A stretch of DNA of 64,000 nucleotides from Methylophilaceae bacterium (GCA_028342535.1 JAOLWQ010000001.1:327490-391489); one strand, 5' to 3'; shown: positions 4,722-13,342, counted from the first letter of the stretch. Translations and numbers: made by a program. The notes: generated by a model not told the origin, from the sequence alone.

Positions 4722-5438
4722 ATGATAAAATTTATTCTAATAATTGCTCATTTAGTTATTGGAACCTTTAGCGCATTATATATTTTGAATATTAATAATA
4801 AACAAAAAAATTTTTTTATTAAGTGGTGGTCATTAAGACTTTTAAAAATTTTTAATGTGAATTTAATTGTAAATAAAAATTTAAAAAAAATTCTGAGAAA
4901 AAAGAATTATTTAATAGTGAGTAATCATATTTCTTGGCTAGATATTTTTGTAATTAATTCAATTTGTCCAGTGACATTTGTTTCTAAATATAGTGTTTCA
5001 AAATGGCCTTTTATTGGATGGCTGGCAAAAGCAACAGACACAATATTTATTGATCGAAGTAGGATTAGTAAAATTAAAGAAACAACAATAAAAATAGAAC
5101 ACCATTTAGAGAATAAAGGAAGTATCTTTATGTTTCCAGAAGGTACATCGACAAATGGTTTATCTGTACTTCCATTTAAAAGTAACTTATTTCAATCCGC
5201 AATAAATACAAATTCTGACATTTTGCCAATAGGAATTCAATATCAACATAAAAATAAATTCACTTCAGCGCCATCATACATTGGTGATATGAGCTTAGTT
5301 GATTCAGTTCTAAATTTAATTAAGCTTGAAAAAATTGATGCAAAAATTACTATATTAAGTCCTATAAGTAAGAATAGAAGTAGAAAATTACTAGCAAAAA
5401 AAGCATATCAAATAATTAATAATTTAATAAAATCTTAA
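4722..5438 (+). CDS. PlsC-like lysophospholipid acyltransferase
   Basis: The acyltransferase motifs are clear: HX4D as NHISWLDIF (His69, Asp74), and the substrate-binding FPEGTSTNG near residue 138. The N-terminus has one hydrophobic anchor helix. The family transfers acyl chains to lysophosphatidate or related acceptors at the inner membrane. A second, different homologue sits at 36797-37504, whose gene context better fits the main plsC. This one could act on another lysolipid, such as lyso-ornithine lipid, but the sequence alone does not decide that. Its stop shares a TTAA with the convergent EamA gene. Confidence 0.85.
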   Translation: MIKFILIIAHLVIGTFSALYILNINNKQKNFFIKWWSLRLLKIFNVNLIVNKNLKKILRKKNYLIVSNHISWLDIFVINSICPVTFVSKYSVSKWPFIGWLAKATDTIFIDRSRISKIKETTIKIEHHLENKGSIFMFPEGTSTNGLSVLPFKSNLFQSAINTNSDILPIGIQYQHKNKFTSAPSYIGDMSLVDSVLNLIKLEKIDAKITILSPISKNRSRKLLAKKAYQIINNLIKS

Positions 5439-6316
5439 TTTTTTTTATTATTCTTATAAAATAATAAAGAAAAAATACCTAGCAGTATAAGAAAGTAACC
5501 AATTTTTTCAGAATTATTAGGTATTTCATTAAGCAATAGCCATGCTGATACTCCACCAGCTATTGGTGTCATTAAAGACAAAATTGAAACTGATGAAGCT
5601 TCAAGATGTTTTAAAGAAAAAAACCATAATAAATATGCAATAGCATTCACAAAAATTATATTAAATAGAACAATACATATAAAATAATTTGTCCAAATAA
5701 TTGGTTCCGAATTAACAATAAATAGAATTATAAATAAAGGAATTGAACCCCATAGCATTTGCCACGCAGTCATAGTTAGAAGATCTAATTTTGGAAACTT
5801 AATATGAATTTTCTTAGATAGAATTACACCACAAGCCCATGAAAAACCAGAAGCTAAAGCAAGTAAGCAGCTAAGTATATTATTACCTTCATTAAGGGGG
5901 TTAAAAATTATCCCTATACCTAAAAAAGATATTGCTATAGCCAGCCATTGCAAAGCACTTAATCTTTCTCTTAAGAATGGCCATGCCATCATTGCAACCC
6001 ATAGAGGCATTGTAAAAACTAATATAACGGTTTTACTTGCACCACCCTCTAATAAAGCCCATATTAGAAACCCTGTAAATCCTGTTGTTTGAAAAAGACC
6101 TAGTATAAAGAGTTTAGGTGCTTCTTTGATAAGAAGTGGTTTTTTTAATACTAAAAGAATTCCAAATAAAACAAATGCTCCAAAAAAATTTCGTATAAAT
6201 GCAAATTCTGCAGGACCAGAAAAATCTAATGCAGATTTCATAAAAGGGACATTAGCTCCCCATATTATAGAGAGTACAAATAGACCTATTATTGATAATA
6301 ATTTATTTTTTTTCAT
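5435..6316 (-). CDS. EamA/DMT-family permease
   Basis: The 293-residue protein has about ten hydrophobic segments and the internal duplication of EamA transporters. The first repeat begins SIIGLFVLSIIWGANVPFMKSAL and the second around ILSCLLALASGFSWACGVILSKK. Members export amino acids or other small metabolites. The substrate cannot be read from sequence. It lies 15 bases downstream of mxaL on the same strand and may be the last gene transcribed with the mxa cluster. Its stop overlaps the convergent acyltransferase stop. Confidence 0.88.
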   Translation of the reverse strand: MKKNKLLSIIGLFVLSIIWGANVPFMKSALDFSGPAEFAFIRNFFGAFVLFGILLVLKKPLLIKEAPKLFILGLFQTTGFTGFLIWALLEGGASKTVILVFTMPLWVAMMAWPFLRERLSALQWLAIAISFLGIGIIFNPLNEGNNILSCLLALASGFSWACGVILSKKIHIKFPKLDLLTMTAWQMLWGSIPLFIILFIVNSEPIIWTNYFICIVLFNIIFVNAIAYLLWFFSLKHLEASSVSILSLMTPIAGGVSAWLLLNEIPNNSEKIGYFLILLGIFSLLFYKNNKKN

Positions 6317-6331
6317 GAAATATTAAAAATT

Positions 6332-7303
6332 TTATTTTTGGGTTAATTTTTTGAAGGAAATTATTATGTAGTTTTCAGTGTATAAAAGAACAATTAATAA
6401 TAAAATAATAAATACACTAGGACGCTCTAATAAAAGTTCAGATTTTATTTTTTTTTGCGGTTTATTTTTAAGAATAGTTTTTACAAAAGTTTTTGAAATA
6501 TCCCCTTTAATATATTGCGCTTTTATTTGGCTCGATAATTCTATAAGGTAACTGTCGTATAATTTTGATAAATAGCGGTCATATTCGGCAGATGCAACAG
6601 AGGGGTCTGGCTCATCTTTTCCACTGTCAGAACTCCTTTCGCCAGTAGCCCCTGGGAGAGAATCATAAATATCCATACCCCAAAAACCAATAAGCATATT
6701 TCTTGAGTTATATCTGGGAACAGGAACATCATTTTCGCCACCAATACCAATAAAAATTAATTCTCTTCCTAAGCTAAAGTTATCTAGATTAACTTTATTA
6801 ATTGCATTAACTTTAGGCGCCTCATCACCATCAGTAAAAAAAAGAATTTTAGATGGAAAATTAAGGCTATCTTGCATTTTAGCTGCAGACTTAATACCAA
6901 AAGTAATTCTTGAATTACCTTTCCATGCCATCCTCCATTCAAGTTTTTGAATTGTATCTATGAGTTCATCATAATTCTTACATTTCTCTACTGGTTCTAT
7001 GATTGATGCAACATTATCAGCTGCAAATATATTGATACTAAAAAAACTCCCACATTCAGATGTGTCAATGATATTTTTAAGTAATAGTTTAGTGTACTCA
7101 ATTCTAGAAATATTTTTTTTATTGTATGTTAAATCCTCTGCATTCATTGATTGAGATACATCAACTAAAAACATATAGCTGGTGACAGATCTTTTTATTT
7201 TTAAAATTGGATTATTAATAGCGATTAAGCACAAAATAATGCTTATTATAAGAATTAATAATTCTTTTTTATTTATTATTAAATTTAATAATTTAAATCT
7301 CAT
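6332..7303 (-). CDS. mxaL: MxaL, von Willebrand factor A protein of methanol oxidation cluster
   Basis: The protein has an N-terminal membrane helix (about 13-30), a VWA domain and a C-terminal helix (about 293-312). The MIDAS metal-site motif is DVSQS (Asp48), with a later FFTDGDEAP strand. Position and architecture match MxaL, last of the R-S-A-C-K-L set that helps assemble active, calcium-loaded methanol dehydrogenase in other methylotrophs. Its start overlaps the mxaK stop by four bases. A generic BatA/BatB-type VWA protein would look similar, so the six-gene order decides the name. Confidence 0.8.
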   Translation of the reverse strand: MRFKLLNLIINKKELLILIISIILCLIAINNPILKIKRSVTSYMFLVDVSQSMNAEDLTYNKKNISRIEYTKLLLKNIIDTSECGSFFSINIFAADNVASIIEPVEKCKNYDELIDTIQKLEWRMAWKGNSRITFGIKSAAKMQDSLNFPSKILFFTDGDEAPKVNAINKVNLDNFSLGRELIFIGIGGENDVPVPRYNSRNMLIGFWGMDIYDSLPGATGERSSDSGKDEPDPSVASAEYDRYLSKLYDSYLIELSSQIKAQYIKGDISKTFVKTILKNKPQKKIKSELLLERPSVFIILLLIVLLYTENYIIISFKKLTQK

Positions 7304-7845
7304 GGTAAGCCAATTGGAATATTGCTAAGCTCTTGAACTGCCTTATCCGACATAATATCTGAAGGTTTATTAGGCATAGATGAATATAAAATACTTAAAT
7401 TAAATTTAGCTAATTTATTTATTGGATTTATCTTTAAAGCTTTCTCATATGAAATAATAGCACTCTGTAACTTATGAAAATTTTCAACTGTTAATTTCCC
7501 ATCATCACTTAATGGTTTAGATAAACCATCTTGAAGGAATAAAGTTCCAATATTGAAATAAATAATATCCATATTATTAGTTTCAGGAAATAATTTTAAA
7601 AGAACATTATATTTTTCAATGGCATTATCATATTCTCCTTGCTTACCTAGCAAGTACGCTGAAGAATATAAGCTCATTTCTTCATATTGATCACTAGTAA
7701 CTAAATCATTTTTTACTAATTGACGGTTAATTTTATTTATCGTTTTATGCTTAAAAAATTCATTTAAAGCTAAAAAAATACATATTAGTAATATGAAAAT
7801 AAAAATATAATTATTTAAATTTAATATTTTTTTTATAAATATCAT
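7300..7845 (-). CDS. mxaK: MxaK, membrane-anchored TPR protein
   Basis: This 181-residue protein has a basic N-terminus, a single membrane helix (about 12-28) and a soluble part with TPR-like helices (YDNAIEKYNVLLKLFPET, ISYEKALKINPINKLAKFNLSIL). The C-terminus is short and ends NIPIGLP. In mxa clusters the gene between the two VWA proteins is MxaK, required for methanol dehydrogenase activity in genetic studies of other species. The sequence on its own would only say membrane-anchored TPR protein. The name comes from context. Confidence 0.75.
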   Translation of the reverse strand: MIFIKKILNLNNYIFIFILLICIFLALNEFFKHKTINKINRQLVKNDLVTSDQYEEMSLYSSAYLLGKQGEYDNAIEKYNVLLKLFPETNNMDIIYFNIGTLFLQDGLSKPLSDDGKLTVENFHKLQSAIISYEKALKINPINKLAKFNLSILYSSMPNKPSDIMSDKAVQELSNIPIGLP

Positions 7846-7848
7846 CTG

Positions 7849-8805
7849 TTATACCTTAATATTTTTAATTAAAATTAATGAAAAAAGAAGTACTAATAAT
7901 ATTCTCAATAAGAAAGGATTATAATTATCGCCAGGAATATCTTTCTCAATTTTGATTGGTCTTTTTTCTTTTGAATCAATATCCATAATTGCAGTTGATA
8001 ATGCGTCAGGATTTTCTGCTTCATAGGCTTGATATTCTGTATTAAGCGACTTAAAAAACATATCTAATTTAATAATGGTTGGCTCCCTACCTTCAAGATA
8101 AGTATTGTCTGAAAATAAGCTAGGATCATTTGGTTCTTTTATAATTATCCAATATAAATTTATTTTTTGTTCAGTTAAAATTTGCGATATTCTATTTTTA
8201 ACTCGTTTAGATATTTTTCCTGCTCCATCTGAAAGTAATACTAATGCTTGTGAACCAGTTGTAGCTATCTCACTAAACATAAATAAACCAGATGTTATTC
8301 CTGAACCAATATTTGTTTGATTAATGGAAGACTTTGTAGCTGCATCAATAGCTGCATATGTGTAATCTCTATTTTTTGTTATTTTAGAACCATACAATGC
8401 GGAATTAGAGAAGCCCACAATACCAATCATGTCCAAAGGGCGATTATGGATAAAATCTTTTAAAATTCTTCTTGCTGCAGTTGATTTAATCTCAGATTTA
8501 TTCTCATCACCACCAATAAATGGTTTAGACATACTAACACTTCTATCTATAACAAATACCAATTGGGCACCTTTACCAATCTGAGTTATAGTTGATGATT
8601 TAGACCATGGATTTGCAAGAATCATAATTAATAAAAGTATTATTGAGGACATAATTACTTTAGTAATTAGATTAATTTTTTTTGATAAATTATCTTCGTA
8701 AAATAAATTAATATTACTGATTAAAAATTTATCTGAAACAGATATGAAAAATGGTAATAGGATCAGTGGTAACAAAAAAAACCAATTTACATTTATAAAA
8801 GTCAT
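7849..8805 (-). CDS. mxaC: MxaC, BatA-like von Willebrand factor A membrane protein
   Basis: The layout is two N-terminal membrane helices (about 6-22 and 48-64), a VWA domain and a C-terminal helix (about 297-315), as in Bat/MxaC proteins. The MIDAS motif is DRSVSMS (Asp87), followed by VLLSDGAGK. The VWA domain would face the periplasm. MxaC is one of the proteins needed to obtain calcium-bound methanol dehydrogenase in Methylobacterium. The gene abuts mxaA upstream and mxaK downstream with almost no spacing, consistent with one operon. Confidence 0.8.
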   Translation of the reverse strand: MTFINVNWFFLLPLILLPFFISVSDKFLISNINLFYEDNLSKKINLITKVIMSSIILLLIMILANPWSKSSTITQIGKGAQLVFVIDRSVSMSKPFIGGDENKSEIKSTAARRILKDFIHNRPLDMIGIVGFSNSALYGSKITKNRDYTYAAIDAATKSSINQTNIGSGITSGLFMFSEIATTGSQALVLLSDGAGKISKRVKNRISQILTEQKINLYWIIIKEPNDPSLFSDNTYLEGREPTIIKLDMFFKSLNTEYQAYEAENPDALSTAIMDIDSKEKRPIKIEKDIPGDNYNPFLLRILLVLLFSLILIKNIKV

Positions 8806-9663
8806 CTATATTTTTCTTTCGATAGCTCTAAGTAGCTTTGAAAAATTATATATATCGATAAAACGATTTTTCGTAAAATATGTTTTAGACGAATAAATTT
8901 CAGCGGAAGAAACCTCTACAAATATTTTAATTTCATCTTTAATTAATTGATAATTTATATTTTTTTCAATAAATTCATTTAAGTTGGAGATATTAATATT
9001 CTTATCAAATGTTTTATTAAAAGCATTAGTTAATATTAAAATAGATTCGATATAATTATCCTTTTCTTTTTTCTTGATTAAAATTTTAATTTTTTTATGG
9101 GCTTTTGCAAATGGACCATTCATTCTTCTTAAAAATGGAATATCAATATTCTTATAAATTAAAATTACTATTATTGATAAAATAATTATTGATAATAAAT
9201 AAGATAATTGATATGAAATTTCTATTTGAGTAGGTTTTTTTTGATCAATAGAATTAAGTAATATATTGTTTAATGGTGAATCAGCTATTTTTGTAAACCA
9301 ATACTTTTTTTCTGGCATCACAATATTGTCATTGTTAAATATATATTTATGAACTGGTAATTCAAAATTACCGTTATTTGTTTTTTGAAATATTTGATAA
9401 ATAATTTTATTAGTAAAAGTATATTTACCTTCATCTTCAATTATTTTATAAGATTGTTTGGTTAACCGTAGATTTTTTATTTTTTTATTTTCTAATTTCG
9501 GAACTTTTATAAATTTTTCATCTGAAATAATCTTATCTTCAATGACAATCAAATCACCCAGTTGGAAGCCATATGTTAAATTAACAATGTTAGTCTCTGT
9601 TTTATAATCTTTTGAGAATGCTAACGTATGAAATAGTAAAAATAAAAAGAAAATATTTTTCAT
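8806..9663 (-). CDS. mxaA: MxaA, methanol dehydrogenase maturation protein
   Basis: A signal peptide (about 1-17) precedes a periplasmic domain of about 130 residues, a membrane helix (LSYLLSIIILSIIVILIY, about 148-168) and a cytoplasmic tail. Sequence similarity is hard to judge by eye, so the assignment rests on topology and on its place between the DUF58 protein MxaS and the VWA protein MxaC. MxaA is linked in other methylotrophs to calcium insertion into methanol dehydrogenase. It overlaps mxaS by four bases and has the very high Lys/Ile content typical of this genome. Confidence 0.72.
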   Translation of the reverse strand: MKNIFFLFLLFHTLAFSKDYKTETNIVNLTYGFQLGDLIVIEDKIISDEKFIKVPKLENKKIKNLRLTKQSYKIIEDEGKYTFTNKIIYQIFQKTNNGNFELPVHKYIFNNDNIVMPEKKYWFTKIADSPLNNILLNSIDQKKPTQIEISYQLSYLLSIIILSIIVILIYKNIDIPFLRRMNGPFAKAHKKIKILIKKKEKDNYIESILILTNAFNKTFDKNINISNLNEFIEKNINYQLIKDEIKIFVEVSSAEIYSSKTYFTKNRFIDIYNFSKLLRAIERKI

Positions 9664-10502
9664 ATGTAATTACCGATGAAGTATTGTTGGATACTTTCTA
9701 TATTAATATCTTCATTTATCTCTATTTGTTTTAACTGCTTTTTCGAAAAAATATTAAATATTTTTATTTTCATTTTTTCATAATCAGTTAATATCTTTTG
9801 CTTTATACTCGGTCTTAAGAATACTTCATGCTCTAAGTTCATCTCAGAATCAGTAAACTTTCTAAATCCATAATTTGGCAATTTTTTAATTTCACTTTCT
9901 GACGAAATAAAAATTGGAATTACATGATGATTTGATAGTTTATTTAGTATTTCTTCTATTTGTATTGGAGTGTGGTGAAAATCTGAGATCCAAAATATTA
10001 ATGATTTCTCTTCCGGTAAGTATTTATCTATATCTTTTATTCCATCACTAGAGCTTTTTTCTATTTCAAATGTAAATTTATCTATCCATTGACTTATGTG
10101 GGCCAGATTGTTGTCAGGTTCTAATAAAAATTTTTTTTTAATTGAGTCGTTATAACAAATCATACTGAACCGATCCCCTTGACTCACTGCTGAATTTGCA
10201 ATGATTTTAGATAAATTCCTAATCATAGAATCATTCTTTTTAGTTACAAACATTGAGCTTGATACATCACATAAAGCAACTAAATTAATTGGATTATTTA
10301 AGTTATATGTCTTAACATATATATCTTCATAAGGGTCTGTTATTGAATTCTTAATGTCTATTCGGGTTAGATCAGGATGATCATTAAAATTTTTCGAGCC
10401 ACTGTATTCAAAATCATTACCAATTTTTGAGCTGAGGTTATTTCCATACCTATTATTTCTTGATCGCCAGGAAATAGAATATATAAATTGATTATCTTTC
10501 AA
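9660..10502 (-). CDS. mxaS: MxaS, DUF58/VWA-like protein
   Basis: The first half carries the YISWRSRNNRYG and IYVKTYNLNNPINLVALCDVSSSM region typical of DUF58 proteins, with a MIDAS-like DVSSS (Asp79). No membrane helix is present, so it is probably cytoplasmic. DUF58 proteins pair with MoxR-type AAA+ ATPases, and here the gene lies three bases after mxaR. In the mxa cluster this pair is MxaR-MxaS, thought to form a chaperone-like machine acting during methanol dehydrogenase maturation. The mechanism is not known from sequence. Confidence 0.82.
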   Translation of the reverse strand: MKDNQFIYSISWRSRNNRYGNNLSSKIGNDFEYSGSKNFNDHPDLTRIDIKNSITDPYEDIYVKTYNLNNPINLVALCDVSSSMFVTKKNDSMIRNLSKIIANSAVSQGDRFSMICYNDSIKKKFLLEPDNNLAHISQWIDKFTFEIEKSSSDGIKDIDKYLPEEKSLIFWISDFHHTPIQIEEILNKLSNHHVIPIFISSESEIKKLPNYGFRKFTDSEMNLEHEVFLRPSIKQKILTDYEKMKIKIFNIFSKKQLKQIEINEDINIESIQQYFIGNYI

Positions 10503-10505
10503 TCA

Positions 10506-11558
10506 TTAATCCAATACTGGAGTTGGCACTCTTATAAGAATTTCTTGTGAAAATTGCTTTAGTAGTTCTATTCTATTGTTTTCATATATTCTATTTATGA
10601 CGAGCCTATGTGCCATAACCTCATGAAAAACATAATCAATATCAGTTGGTTCAATATGTGATCTATTATTTAACCATGCATTAACTTTTGCAGCTTTGAT
10701 AAGCATGATCATTCCTCTTGGACTTGCTCCCGCAACAATGAAGTCATTCATATCCACTTCTTTAATATTGATATTAAATTTTTCTGGGGCCTCAGTGGCT
10801 AACCATAAATTTTCTACATACTCTCTTATATGGCTACTAGCTTGAACTTCATTTTGTATTGCAATAGATACTTTATTAAGCTCTTTGCAGTTAAAGTTAG
10901 CTGTAGGAATATCTTCAACTAATTTACTAGTATCTTGGAATCTACTATCAAAAATTATTGAATCACGTAATTTTTTATCTTTCGGAGCTTCGATTGAAAT
11001 TTCCATCATAAATCTATCACGTGCTGCAGCTGGAAGTTCAAAAGTCTCATTCTTTTCTACCTGATTTCGATCTGCGAAAACAACCATATTTGGCAAAAAT
11101 ATATCTTTATTAAATGCACTAATTGATTTTTCTGTCATTGCCCTTAAAAGTAATGAATGGACCTGAGGCCTTGCTCTATTAATTTCATTAAAAAAGAATA
11201 TTGATAAATCTTCACCTTTTTTAAGGAGAGGTCCTTTGGAGATATTTGGTTTTCCTTCGGCATTAATGGATGCATGATAAATAATATCATTCGGCATTAA
11301 GTCAACAGTCCCTTCTACTCGCTCATACTCTCCACCAATTAATTTGGTAATTACTTGTAATAAAGTTGTTTTACCAACCCCTACGCCACCTTCTAGCAAT
11401 ACATGACCTCTAGAAAACAGGCTAATAATGATTAGTTTTATTGCTTTTTCTTGTCCTAAAATAATCTTATTTGCGTCTAATTGAATTTTATCAGCATGGT
11501 CACGCCATTGTTTAATTATTGGATTTGATGATTCATTATTTGAATTATTTTCACTCAA
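10506..11558 (-). CDS. mxaR: MxaR, MoxR-type AAA+ ATPase
   Basis: This is a MoxR-family AAA+ ATPase with Walker A GGVGVGKTT (about 57-65). The Walker B segment reads FFFNEINRARPQ (Asn124-Glu125), so Asn stands where most AAA+ proteins have Asp. Sensor and lid parts follow (AAARDRFMMEI, ASPRGMIMLIKAAK). It heads the cluster and probably works with MxaS on methanol dehydrogenase maturation. The reading frame begins with TTG, preceded by AAGGA about ten bases upstream. I see no upstream in-frame ATG that would be better. Confidence 0.86.
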   Translation of the reverse strand: MSENNSNNESSNPIIKQWRDHADKIQLDANKIILGQEKAIKLIIISLFSRGHVLLEGGVGVGKTTLLQVITKLIGGEYERVEGTVDLMPNDIIYHASINAEGKPNISKGPLLKKGEDLSIFFFNEINRARPQVHSLLLRAMTEKSISAFNKDIFLPNMVVFADRNQVEKNETFELPAAARDRFMMEISIEAPKDKKLRDSIIFDSRFQDTSKLVEDIPTANFNCKELNKVSIAIQNEVQASSHIREYVENLWLATEAPEKFNINIKEVDMNDFIVAGASPRGMIMLIKAAKVNAWLNNRSHIEPTDIDYVFHEVMAHRLVINRIYENNRIELLKQFSQEILIRVPTPVLD

Positions 11559-11621
11559 AAGATTTTATATCCTTTTAAAATTAAATTTTTATTCTATAAG
11601 CTAATTGTTATTTCATTCGTA

Positions 11622-11630
11622 AGTATAGCA
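11622..11630 (-). promoter_or_regulatory. Candidate extended -10 promoter for the mxa cluster
   Basis: On the minus strand TGCTATACT matches the extended -10 form TGnTATAAT with one change. It lies just after the sulP stop and about 64 bases before the mxaR TTG start. It would give mxaRSACKL its own promoter separate from sulP. No clear -35 is present, which extended -10 promoters can tolerate. This is a single-motif prediction. Confidence 0.33.
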
Positions 11631-11636
11631 AAAGTT

Positions 11637-13160
11637 TTAACTTAATTTATCATCTGCAATATGGTATTTAGGATCTTCAAGTACATTTATTTCTACCATT
11701 TTTTTTGCGCTTTCTAAAACTTCTAAGCAGTCTGGGCTTAAATGAACAAGGTGCAATTTTTTGCCAGCTAATTTATATTTGTTTGCTAAATTATCAATTG
11801 CCATTAGGGCGGAATGGTCAGCTACTTTAGATAACTTAAAGTCGATAATAACTTCTTTCGGATCTTCCTTGATTTTAAATAATTCATTAAAGTTTTTAAC
11901 TGACGCAAAGAAAAGCGTACCCTTAAGCTCGTATATTTTCCAACCTTTTTTATTTTTTGAAGTTATAACTTCAATTATTCTTGCATGCTCCCATGCAAAT
12001 ACCAGTGCTGATACAATAACTCCTAAAATAACTGCTATTGCTAAATCTGCAACAATGGTTACTGCTCCTACAAGTAAACCAACAAAAATATCTTTTGTAG
12101 GAACTTTCCCAAATAATCTTAGACTACCCCATTCAAAAGTCTTTTCAGCAACTACAAACATAACGCCAATTAAAGCAGCTAAAGGAATCATTTCAATCCA
12201 TTTAGAAAGAAATAAAACAAAAGATGCTAGAAATACTGCTGTAGCAATTCCAGATAATCGTTTAACAGCACCATTATTTATATTAATCATACTTTGACCA
12301 ATCATCGCACAGCCACCCATACCACCAAAGAAGCCAGTTACAATATTGGCAAATCCTTGCGCCATTGATTCTTTGTTCGGTCTCCCTCTGGTATCGGTCA
12401 TATCATCAATTAAATTTAATGTAAGAAGTGATTCTATTAAACCAATAGCAGCTAATAAAAAAGCATAAGGTAATATGATTTTAAAGGTCTCTAAATTTAT
12501 GGGGACTAGTGGAAAATTGAAATTAGGAATACCGCCAGCAATTGAGCCTAAATCTCCAACTGTTTTACTATCAATACCGAAAAATGAAACAATACTTGTA
12601 GTAAAAATGATTGCAGCAAGTGTTGATGGAATAGTTTTAGTTATTTTTGGGAAGATATAAATAATAGTAACAGTCAGAATAATTAGACTTAGCATAATAT
12701 AAAGAGGTAAACCTTCCATCCAAATAGATATTCCTTGGCTATTAATAGTTTTAAAGTGATTAAATTGTGCAATAAATATAACAATTGCTAACCCATTTAC
12801 AAATCCAAGCATCACTGGATAAGGAACCATACGAATAAATTTACCTAATTTAAAAAGAGCAAAAATTATTTGTAATAACCCCATCATTATTACAGTAAAA
12901 AAGAGATATTCAGCACCATGCTGAACTACTAGTGAAACCATTACAACGGCGAGAGCCCCAGTTGCACCTGATACCATTCCAGGTCGACCACCAAATATAG
13001 AGGTAATCAAACAAATTATTATGGCAGCATAAAGACCTGTAAGAGGGGAGACTTGAGCAATAAGGGCAAATGCAATTGCTTCAGGAACCATAGCTAATGC
13101 GACTGTTAAACCACTTAATATGTTAGTTTTAATTTCTGGAAAATTATACGAGGATGACAT
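11637..13160 (-). CDS. SulP-family anion transporter with STAS domain
   Basis: The 507-residue protein has the SulP layout: a membrane domain of many helices starting near ILSGLTVALAMVPEAIAFALIAQVSPLTGLYAAII, and a C-terminal cytoplasmic STAS domain (about 405-495, with KEVIIDFKLSKVADHSALMAID). SulP members carry sulfate, bicarbonate or other anions. The substrate here is not certain. MVSGATGALAVVM and the GGMGGCAMIGQSMININNGA motif are typical. It is upstream of mxaR on the same strand with a 78-base gap, probably a separate unit. Confidence 0.9.
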   Translation of the reverse strand: MSSSYNFPEIKTNILSGLTVALAMVPEAIAFALIAQVSPLTGLYAAIIICLITSIFGGRPGMVSGATGALAVVMVSLVVQHGAEYLFFTVIMMGLLQIIFALFKLGKFIRMVPYPVMLGFVNGLAIVIFIAQFNHFKTINSQGISIWMEGLPLYIMLSLIILTVTIIYIFPKITKTIPSTLAAIIFTTSIVSFFGIDSKTVGDLGSIAGGIPNFNFPLVPINLETFKIILPYAFLLAAIGLIESLLTLNLIDDMTDTRGRPNKESMAQGFANIVTGFFGGMGGCAMIGQSMININNGAVKRLSGIATAVFLASFVLFLSKWIEMIPLAALIGVMFVVAEKTFEWGSLRLFGKVPTKDIFVGLLVGAVTIVADLAIAVILGVIVSALVFAWEHARIIEVITSKNKKGWKIYELKGTLFFASVKNFNELFKIKEDPKEVIIDFKLSKVADHSALMAIDNLANKYKLAGKKLHLVHLSPDCLEVLESAKKMVEINVLEDPKYHIADDKLS

Positions 13161-13342
13161 TTAAATTATTTGCTTTCTTAAGATTTTATTTAATAAAATA
13201 GGACGTCACAACTTAACACATTTAATTGTTTGGGAAAAAATAGTTTTTAAAAAAATAGCTGGGTATGAATTCCATTTTATTGTAACATTTCTAGAATAAG
13301 AGTAAATTGTGGTTATATTTATAATTTATATGTGGGGCTATT

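Follow-up and report, generated by a model that had tools for sequence, protein, structure and literature searches.

The window analyzed here is a 64,000-nucleotide stretch of DNA from a Methylophilaceae bacterium whose assembly amounts to 1,194,772 bases in 17 contigs and is 93% complete. On the minus strand, positions 6332–11558 hold six contiguous open reading frames in the order mxaR-S-A-C-K-L, all uninterrupted from start to stop, with neighbors that overlap by 4 bases or sit 0–3 bases apart. The mxaR gene (10506..11558) encodes a 350-amino-acid ATPase of the MoxR family of AAA+ proteins (PF07726, AAA_3, 89.5 bits) with the Walker A motif GGVGVGKT and the Walker B motif FFFNEINRARPQ. It is followed by mxaS (9660..10502), encoding a DUF58/VWA protein of 280 amino acids (PF01882, 41.5 bits), and by mxaA (8806..9663), a fast-evolving gene for a 285-amino-acid protein with an N-terminal signal-like segment. 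No Pfam or NCBIfam family was matched by MxaA in the profile search; the protein can be aligned with MxaA of the type A and type M clusters described below. The remaining genes are mxaC (7849..8805), encoding a VWA protein (PF13519/PF00092); mxaK (7300..7845), encoding a membrane-anchored TPR protein of 181 amino acids (TPR_2, 31.2 bits); and mxaL (6332..7303), encoding another VWA protein (PF13519, 40.4 bits).

MxaR and MxaS have no predicted transmembrane (TM) helix and are probably cytoplasmic, while one TM helix is predicted in MxaA, one in MxaK, three in MxaC and two in MxaL. A motif check found MIDAS motifs in all three VWA proteins, DVSSS in MxaS, DRSVS in MxaC and DVSQS in MxaL. Genes for an EamA permease (5435–6316) and an acyltransferase (4722–5438) lie on one side of the cluster and a SulP gene (11637–13160) on the other. 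None of mxaF, J, G, I or D adjoins it, and the gene calls agree on these flanks with the original prediction.

Identity of the six genes

Pfam and NCBIfam returned only general domains for the six proteins (AAA_3, DUF58, VWA and TPR) and nothing for MxaA, so the cluster was compared with annotated operons. The references were plasmid-borne operons annotated as mxaFJGIRSACKLD, found in Methylobacterium nodulans, Methylocystis iwaonis and Paracoccus methylovorus, together with unannotated equivalents from Paracoccus denitrificans, Azospirillum lipoferum and Methylobacterium aquaticum. MxaR is 44–49% identical to the MxaR proteins of the named operons and shares with the annotated ones the signature FFFNEINR(A/S)RPQ, the core of which (FFFNEINR) is common to the named operons and the 85 Methylophilaceae clusters tested. 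Every MxaR examined, including those of annotated mxa operons, has NE in Walker B in place of the usual DE. Alignment to the named proteins also gave strong E-values for MxaS (19–24% identity, matching Methylocystis and Methylobacterium MxaS), MxaC (24–33%) and MxaL (26–36%), and a significant though weak match of MxaA to Paracoccus MxaA. MxaK is the weakest of the six; its sole match, at E 1e-4, is to an orphan set in Caballeronia, and the assignment of this putative MxaK is based mainly on its place in the gene order.

Operons of the generic BatABD/MoxR kind, with no tie to methylotrophy, also contain MoxR, DUF58, VWA and TPR proteins, and the window MxaC does reach the BatA_Lepto profile weakly. 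The scores against the bat profiles matched, which comprised Leptospira-type models only, are nevertheless far below the cut-offs (55 bits against 380 for BatA_Lepto and 15 against 350 for BatB_Lepto). Gene by gene and in order, the cluster corresponds to annotated mxa operons, the shared MxaR signature points the same way, and the identity of MxaR to named methylotroph proteins contrasts with a partial-length identity of approximately 30% to a different MoxR that sister genomes carry. The bat reading, which the original prediction had named as its possible undoing, is thus not supported by these comparisons, and we regard it as extremely improbable. From the matches to annotated operons, the six genes at 6332–11558 are best identified as a genuine mxaRSACKL maturation set, in the gene order originally predicted, with MxaK as the weakly matching member. 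The set has the same six genes, order, matching domains and MxaR signature as the classic mxaFJGIRSACKLD operon of Methylobacterium, Methylocystis and Paracoccus. It differs from that operon in lacking mxaFJGI and mxaD, in belonging to a separate stand-alone lineage and in the strong divergence of MxaA, MxaK and MxaS.

Three lineages of accessory clusters

Contig C15 of the genome carries a second complete mxaRSACKL set, flanked by fabB/fabA and by a ygfZ-like gene. The 85 complete clusters extracted from Methylophilaceae fall into three supported clades, designated M for the clusters tied to mxaI, A for those at fabAB and B for those standing alone. A quick tree that was flagged for long branches was followed by one built under a mixture model from 42 clusters, the named operons among them; in this second tree the window cluster lies in clade B with support of 100/100, apart from M and A, and the clusters of its genus stand together on a long stem as sister to the remaining B clusters. 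The Walker A motif of MxaR reads GGVGVGKT in 48/48 B clusters and GDVGVGKT in all 37 of the A and M clusters, and the MxaC MIDAS motif DRSVS is found in 48/48 B clusters; the window set carries both of the B motifs. Type A and type B are strongly diverged, at 55% identity for MoxR and about 20–30% for MxaA. Membership in B means that the window set is not a leftover of the classic operon, and not the obligatory XoxF set either. The idea of a maturation set left behind by the classic operon gives way to a stand-alone lineage in a genome with another complete set on C15.

The Caballeronia orphan, from plasmid p3 of Caballeronia sp. Lep1P3, is likewise a complete RSACKL set that lacks mxaFJGI. 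It also has GGVGVGKT, so this marker alone is not unique to clade B. The orphan comes from a different family, and its long branch falls in neither the A nor the B clade of the Methylophilaceae. It occupies positions 7983–13186 of locus L253, the plasmid is typed as mobilizable, and integrase and transposase genes are found nearby.

The three types differ in distribution. Forty-one family genomes were searched for MoxR and XoxF. Type A was found in 40 of them, the exception (G021) having M, and wherever MxaF occurs, type M is present as well. Two genomes, G003 and G004, have a type A MoxR with no XoxF detected, which may reflect assembly gaps or another client. Type B occurs in 17 genomes outside the window's genus. 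Two or more methanol dehydrogenase (MDH) genes are present in 16/17 of these genomes versus 4/17 of those without B (Fisher p 6e-5), a comparison that uses a hand classification from identity bands, includes a few fragment genes and is confounded by both genome size and ancestry. In the window's own genus, 7/31 genomes have B, and an A-type match is present in 14/14 of the genus genomes that are at least 90% complete. The presence of B thus tracks neither the near-universality of A nor the tie of M to MxaF. Most of the genus genomes with XoxF only are without type B, and B is therefore dispensable for XoxF in the genus.

Type B also changes its surroundings. The seven copies in the genus occupy at least five neighborhoods: between EamA and SulP in this genome (G000) and G129, beside rhodopsin genes in G147 and G150, beside a secretin gene in G086, at pheT/glnE in G141 and next to a TetR pair in G104. 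The rhodopsin genes are two adjacent bacteriorhodopsin-like genes that abut the type B cluster (L061, 6369–7876; L062, 11478–12987). The copy in G104 shares 88.6–90.3% identity with its counterparts in G086 and G141, whereas the A sets and flanking markers of the same genomes are only 67–70% identical, and G080, a near relative of G104, is without B. This pattern suggests horizontal transfer of the G104 copy, with mis-binning of its 10.8-kb contig as the alternative. As for vehicles, viral contigs gave no match to the window MxaS, and the plasmid matches were all distant, at less than 60% identity. SulP is rare in the genus and offered no usable empty site. A PQQ dehydrogenase gene does not recur as a neighbor of stand-alone B clusters in the flanks examined. 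In larger Methylophilaceae, M and B sets are found near each other.

Regulatory genes accompany many of the B clusters. In 17 loci, 16 of them in other genera and one in the window's genus (G104), mxaR lies beside a divergent pair consisting of a TetR regulator and an uncharacterized protein that bears a TM-like segment; the G104 pair, divergent from mxaR, spans 9467–10772 of L065. A further 14 B loci have a divergent MocR-type regulator, with a match to the PdxR profile in the one case examined. These arrangements suggest that type B would be conditionally regulated in the genomes concerned. The window copy adjoins neither the TetR pair nor a MocR-type regulator, one or the other of which is found at 31 other B loci. 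The Walker and MIDAS motifs of the window set are intact. Between this genome and G129, dN/dS is 0.07–0.18 for the B genes (0.02–0.23 for A), and type B is therefore under purifying selection.

Candidate clients and the role of type B

The original prediction left room for structural genes elsewhere in the genome, and the genome-wide search found none in the assembly. The MxaI profile (PF02315) has no match in the 93% complete assembly, although the same search finds MxaI in 42/150 family genomes, none of them of the window's genus. MxaF is also missing from this assembly, as are all of mxaFJGI and mxaD, and a single XoxF is the only MDH-grade match. The xoxF gene (C1:240166–242055) is accompanied by xoxJ, xoxG and an NADH-dehydrogenase-like gene, in keeping with the XoxF-type context that had been suggested. 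Its product carries the DxD motif WDYDG, as in solved XoxF structures with WD(Y/F)DG (6dam and 6oc5) and unlike solved MxaF with WD(Y/F)AG; by this motif, therefore, it is classed as a lanthanide-type MDH. In pelagic forms XoxF4 is the only MDH (PMC8262872, PMC6794327), and OM43-like XoxF is among the most abundant transcripts and proteins in coastal waters (PMC5120137).

The genome encodes three other quinoproteins: a PQQ-type lipoprotein of 580 amino acids, a PQQ-type protein of 674 amino acids and a BamB-like protein. The 580-amino-acid lipoprotein (L007, 8876–10618, corresponding to C1:123875–125614) is found in 24/31 genus genomes. It has glycine at the position of the MDH catalytic aspartate (PHDTWGYDV versus PHDEWDYDG) and is perhaps not an ordinary PQQ dehydrogenase. 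The 674-amino-acid protein (L009, 7414–9438, corresponding to C3:13416–15437) has a CxxCH heme c motif, CASCH. Within the genus it occurs in this genome only, on the short 20-kb contig C3, and may be a recent gain or contamination; a tie between it and type B was rejected on this restricted occurrence.

To our knowledge, how metal is delivered to lanthanide MDHs in the periplasm is not settled. The reading we favor, at about even odds, is that the window holds an accessory type B mxaRSACKL set in a streamlined OM43-like member of the Methylophilaceae whose methanol oxidation relies on a single lanthanide-type XoxF, and that XoxF is the likeliest client in this genome. ATP hydrolysis by a cytoplasmic MxaR ring, acting with the cytoplasmic VWA protein MxaS, would drive a membrane-anchored complex of MxaC, MxaL, MxaA and MxaK, and the MIDAS sites of the VWA domains would grip the PQQ dehydrogenase in the periplasm as its metal site is loaded. 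This mechanism is modeled on NorQ–NorD, in which a MoxR ring twists its VWA partner and thereby enables metal insertion (PMC13036017). Like the mxa set, NorQ–NorD and related MoxR–VWA pairs join a MoxR AAA+ protein to a VWA/MIDAS partner, which in their case enables the placement of metal in a redox enzyme (PMC13036017). NorQD has two components and inserts iron; the mxa set includes three VWA proteins, of which two are predicted to be membrane anchored. Type A, being near-ubiquitous, is probably the house-keeping version, and type B would be an alternative set, one that lineages relocate, lose or exchange and that is under local control in other genera. We infer the client, the metal and this division of labor between A and B. 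A role with XoxF is not transferable from M. extorquens, because in strain AM1 La represses the mxa accessory genes along with mxaF (PMC6414531) and a transposon screen on XoxF1 names a MxaD homolog in its main text, with mxaR, S, A and C unmentioned there (PMC7391723).

A counterpoint to XoxF as the client is that every type B genome of the genus (7/7) also carries a second quinoprotein, the 580-amino-acid lipoprotein, and that B is found in 0/7 of the genomes without it. That type B serves this or another quinoprotein would also fit its dispensability for XoxF. The lipoprotein is present in 24/31 genomes, however, mostly without B, so that it is not diagnostic and the association is weak (approximately 0.13, by a hand-computed hypergeometric test); moreover, its catalytic aspartate is replaced, and outside the genus B goes with genomes that have several MDHs. 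We consider a client of this kind rather unlikely. A similarly low probability attaches to the view that A and B duplicate each other on the same XoxF, B adding dosage or acting as a stress- or metal-dependent variant. The separate regulators of B in other genera and its company of multiple MDHs outside the genus, with the confounding noted above, would suit such a duplicate, but the divergence between A and B argues for different partners or conditions, and the window copy has no regulator neighbors.

It is very unlikely that the window genes are a functionless relic, the accessory part of a classic mxaFJGI operon that lost its structural genes. The genes do follow the classic order and mxaFJGI and mxaD are all gone, as such a relic would have it, but the cluster belongs to a tree lineage distinct from all 14 mxaI-linked clusters, M and B sets co-occur in larger Methylophilaceae, and the motifs are intact; tree placement and purifying selection together led to its rejection. 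Beyond the favored assignment to XoxF, a more speculative and doubtful proposal is that type B is a specialized, locally regulated, horizontally exchanged module that inserts metal into PQQ dehydrogenases and has a client or metal unlike that of house-keeping type A, for example in alternative-metal loading or in the rescue of apo-XoxF when lanthanides are scarce.

The target of the machinery had been put forward as an open question, and the finding is in fact largely known. In the portion of the published Methylophilaceae comparison on which we draw (PMC4109929), the core genome includes XoxF, XoxJG, PQQ synthesis and MxaRSACKL and leaves out mxaFI, and the accessory set occurs in 2–4 copies per cultured strain at locations that are not strictly conserved. 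Like the window cluster, those extra sets lie away from mxaFJGI and are also found in strains without MxaFI. They are not split into lineages in that portion of the work, whereas the window copy is assigned here to type B, which is optional within its genus. What is new is that the clusters divide into M, A and B, that the window copy falls in the optional lineage and that B has a patchy, relocating spread. A clean natural experiment is offered by minimal genomes that combine a single XoxF with one or two mxaRSACKL sets, in which type A, kept almost everywhere, is a candidate XoxF maturase against which the optional type B can be compared.
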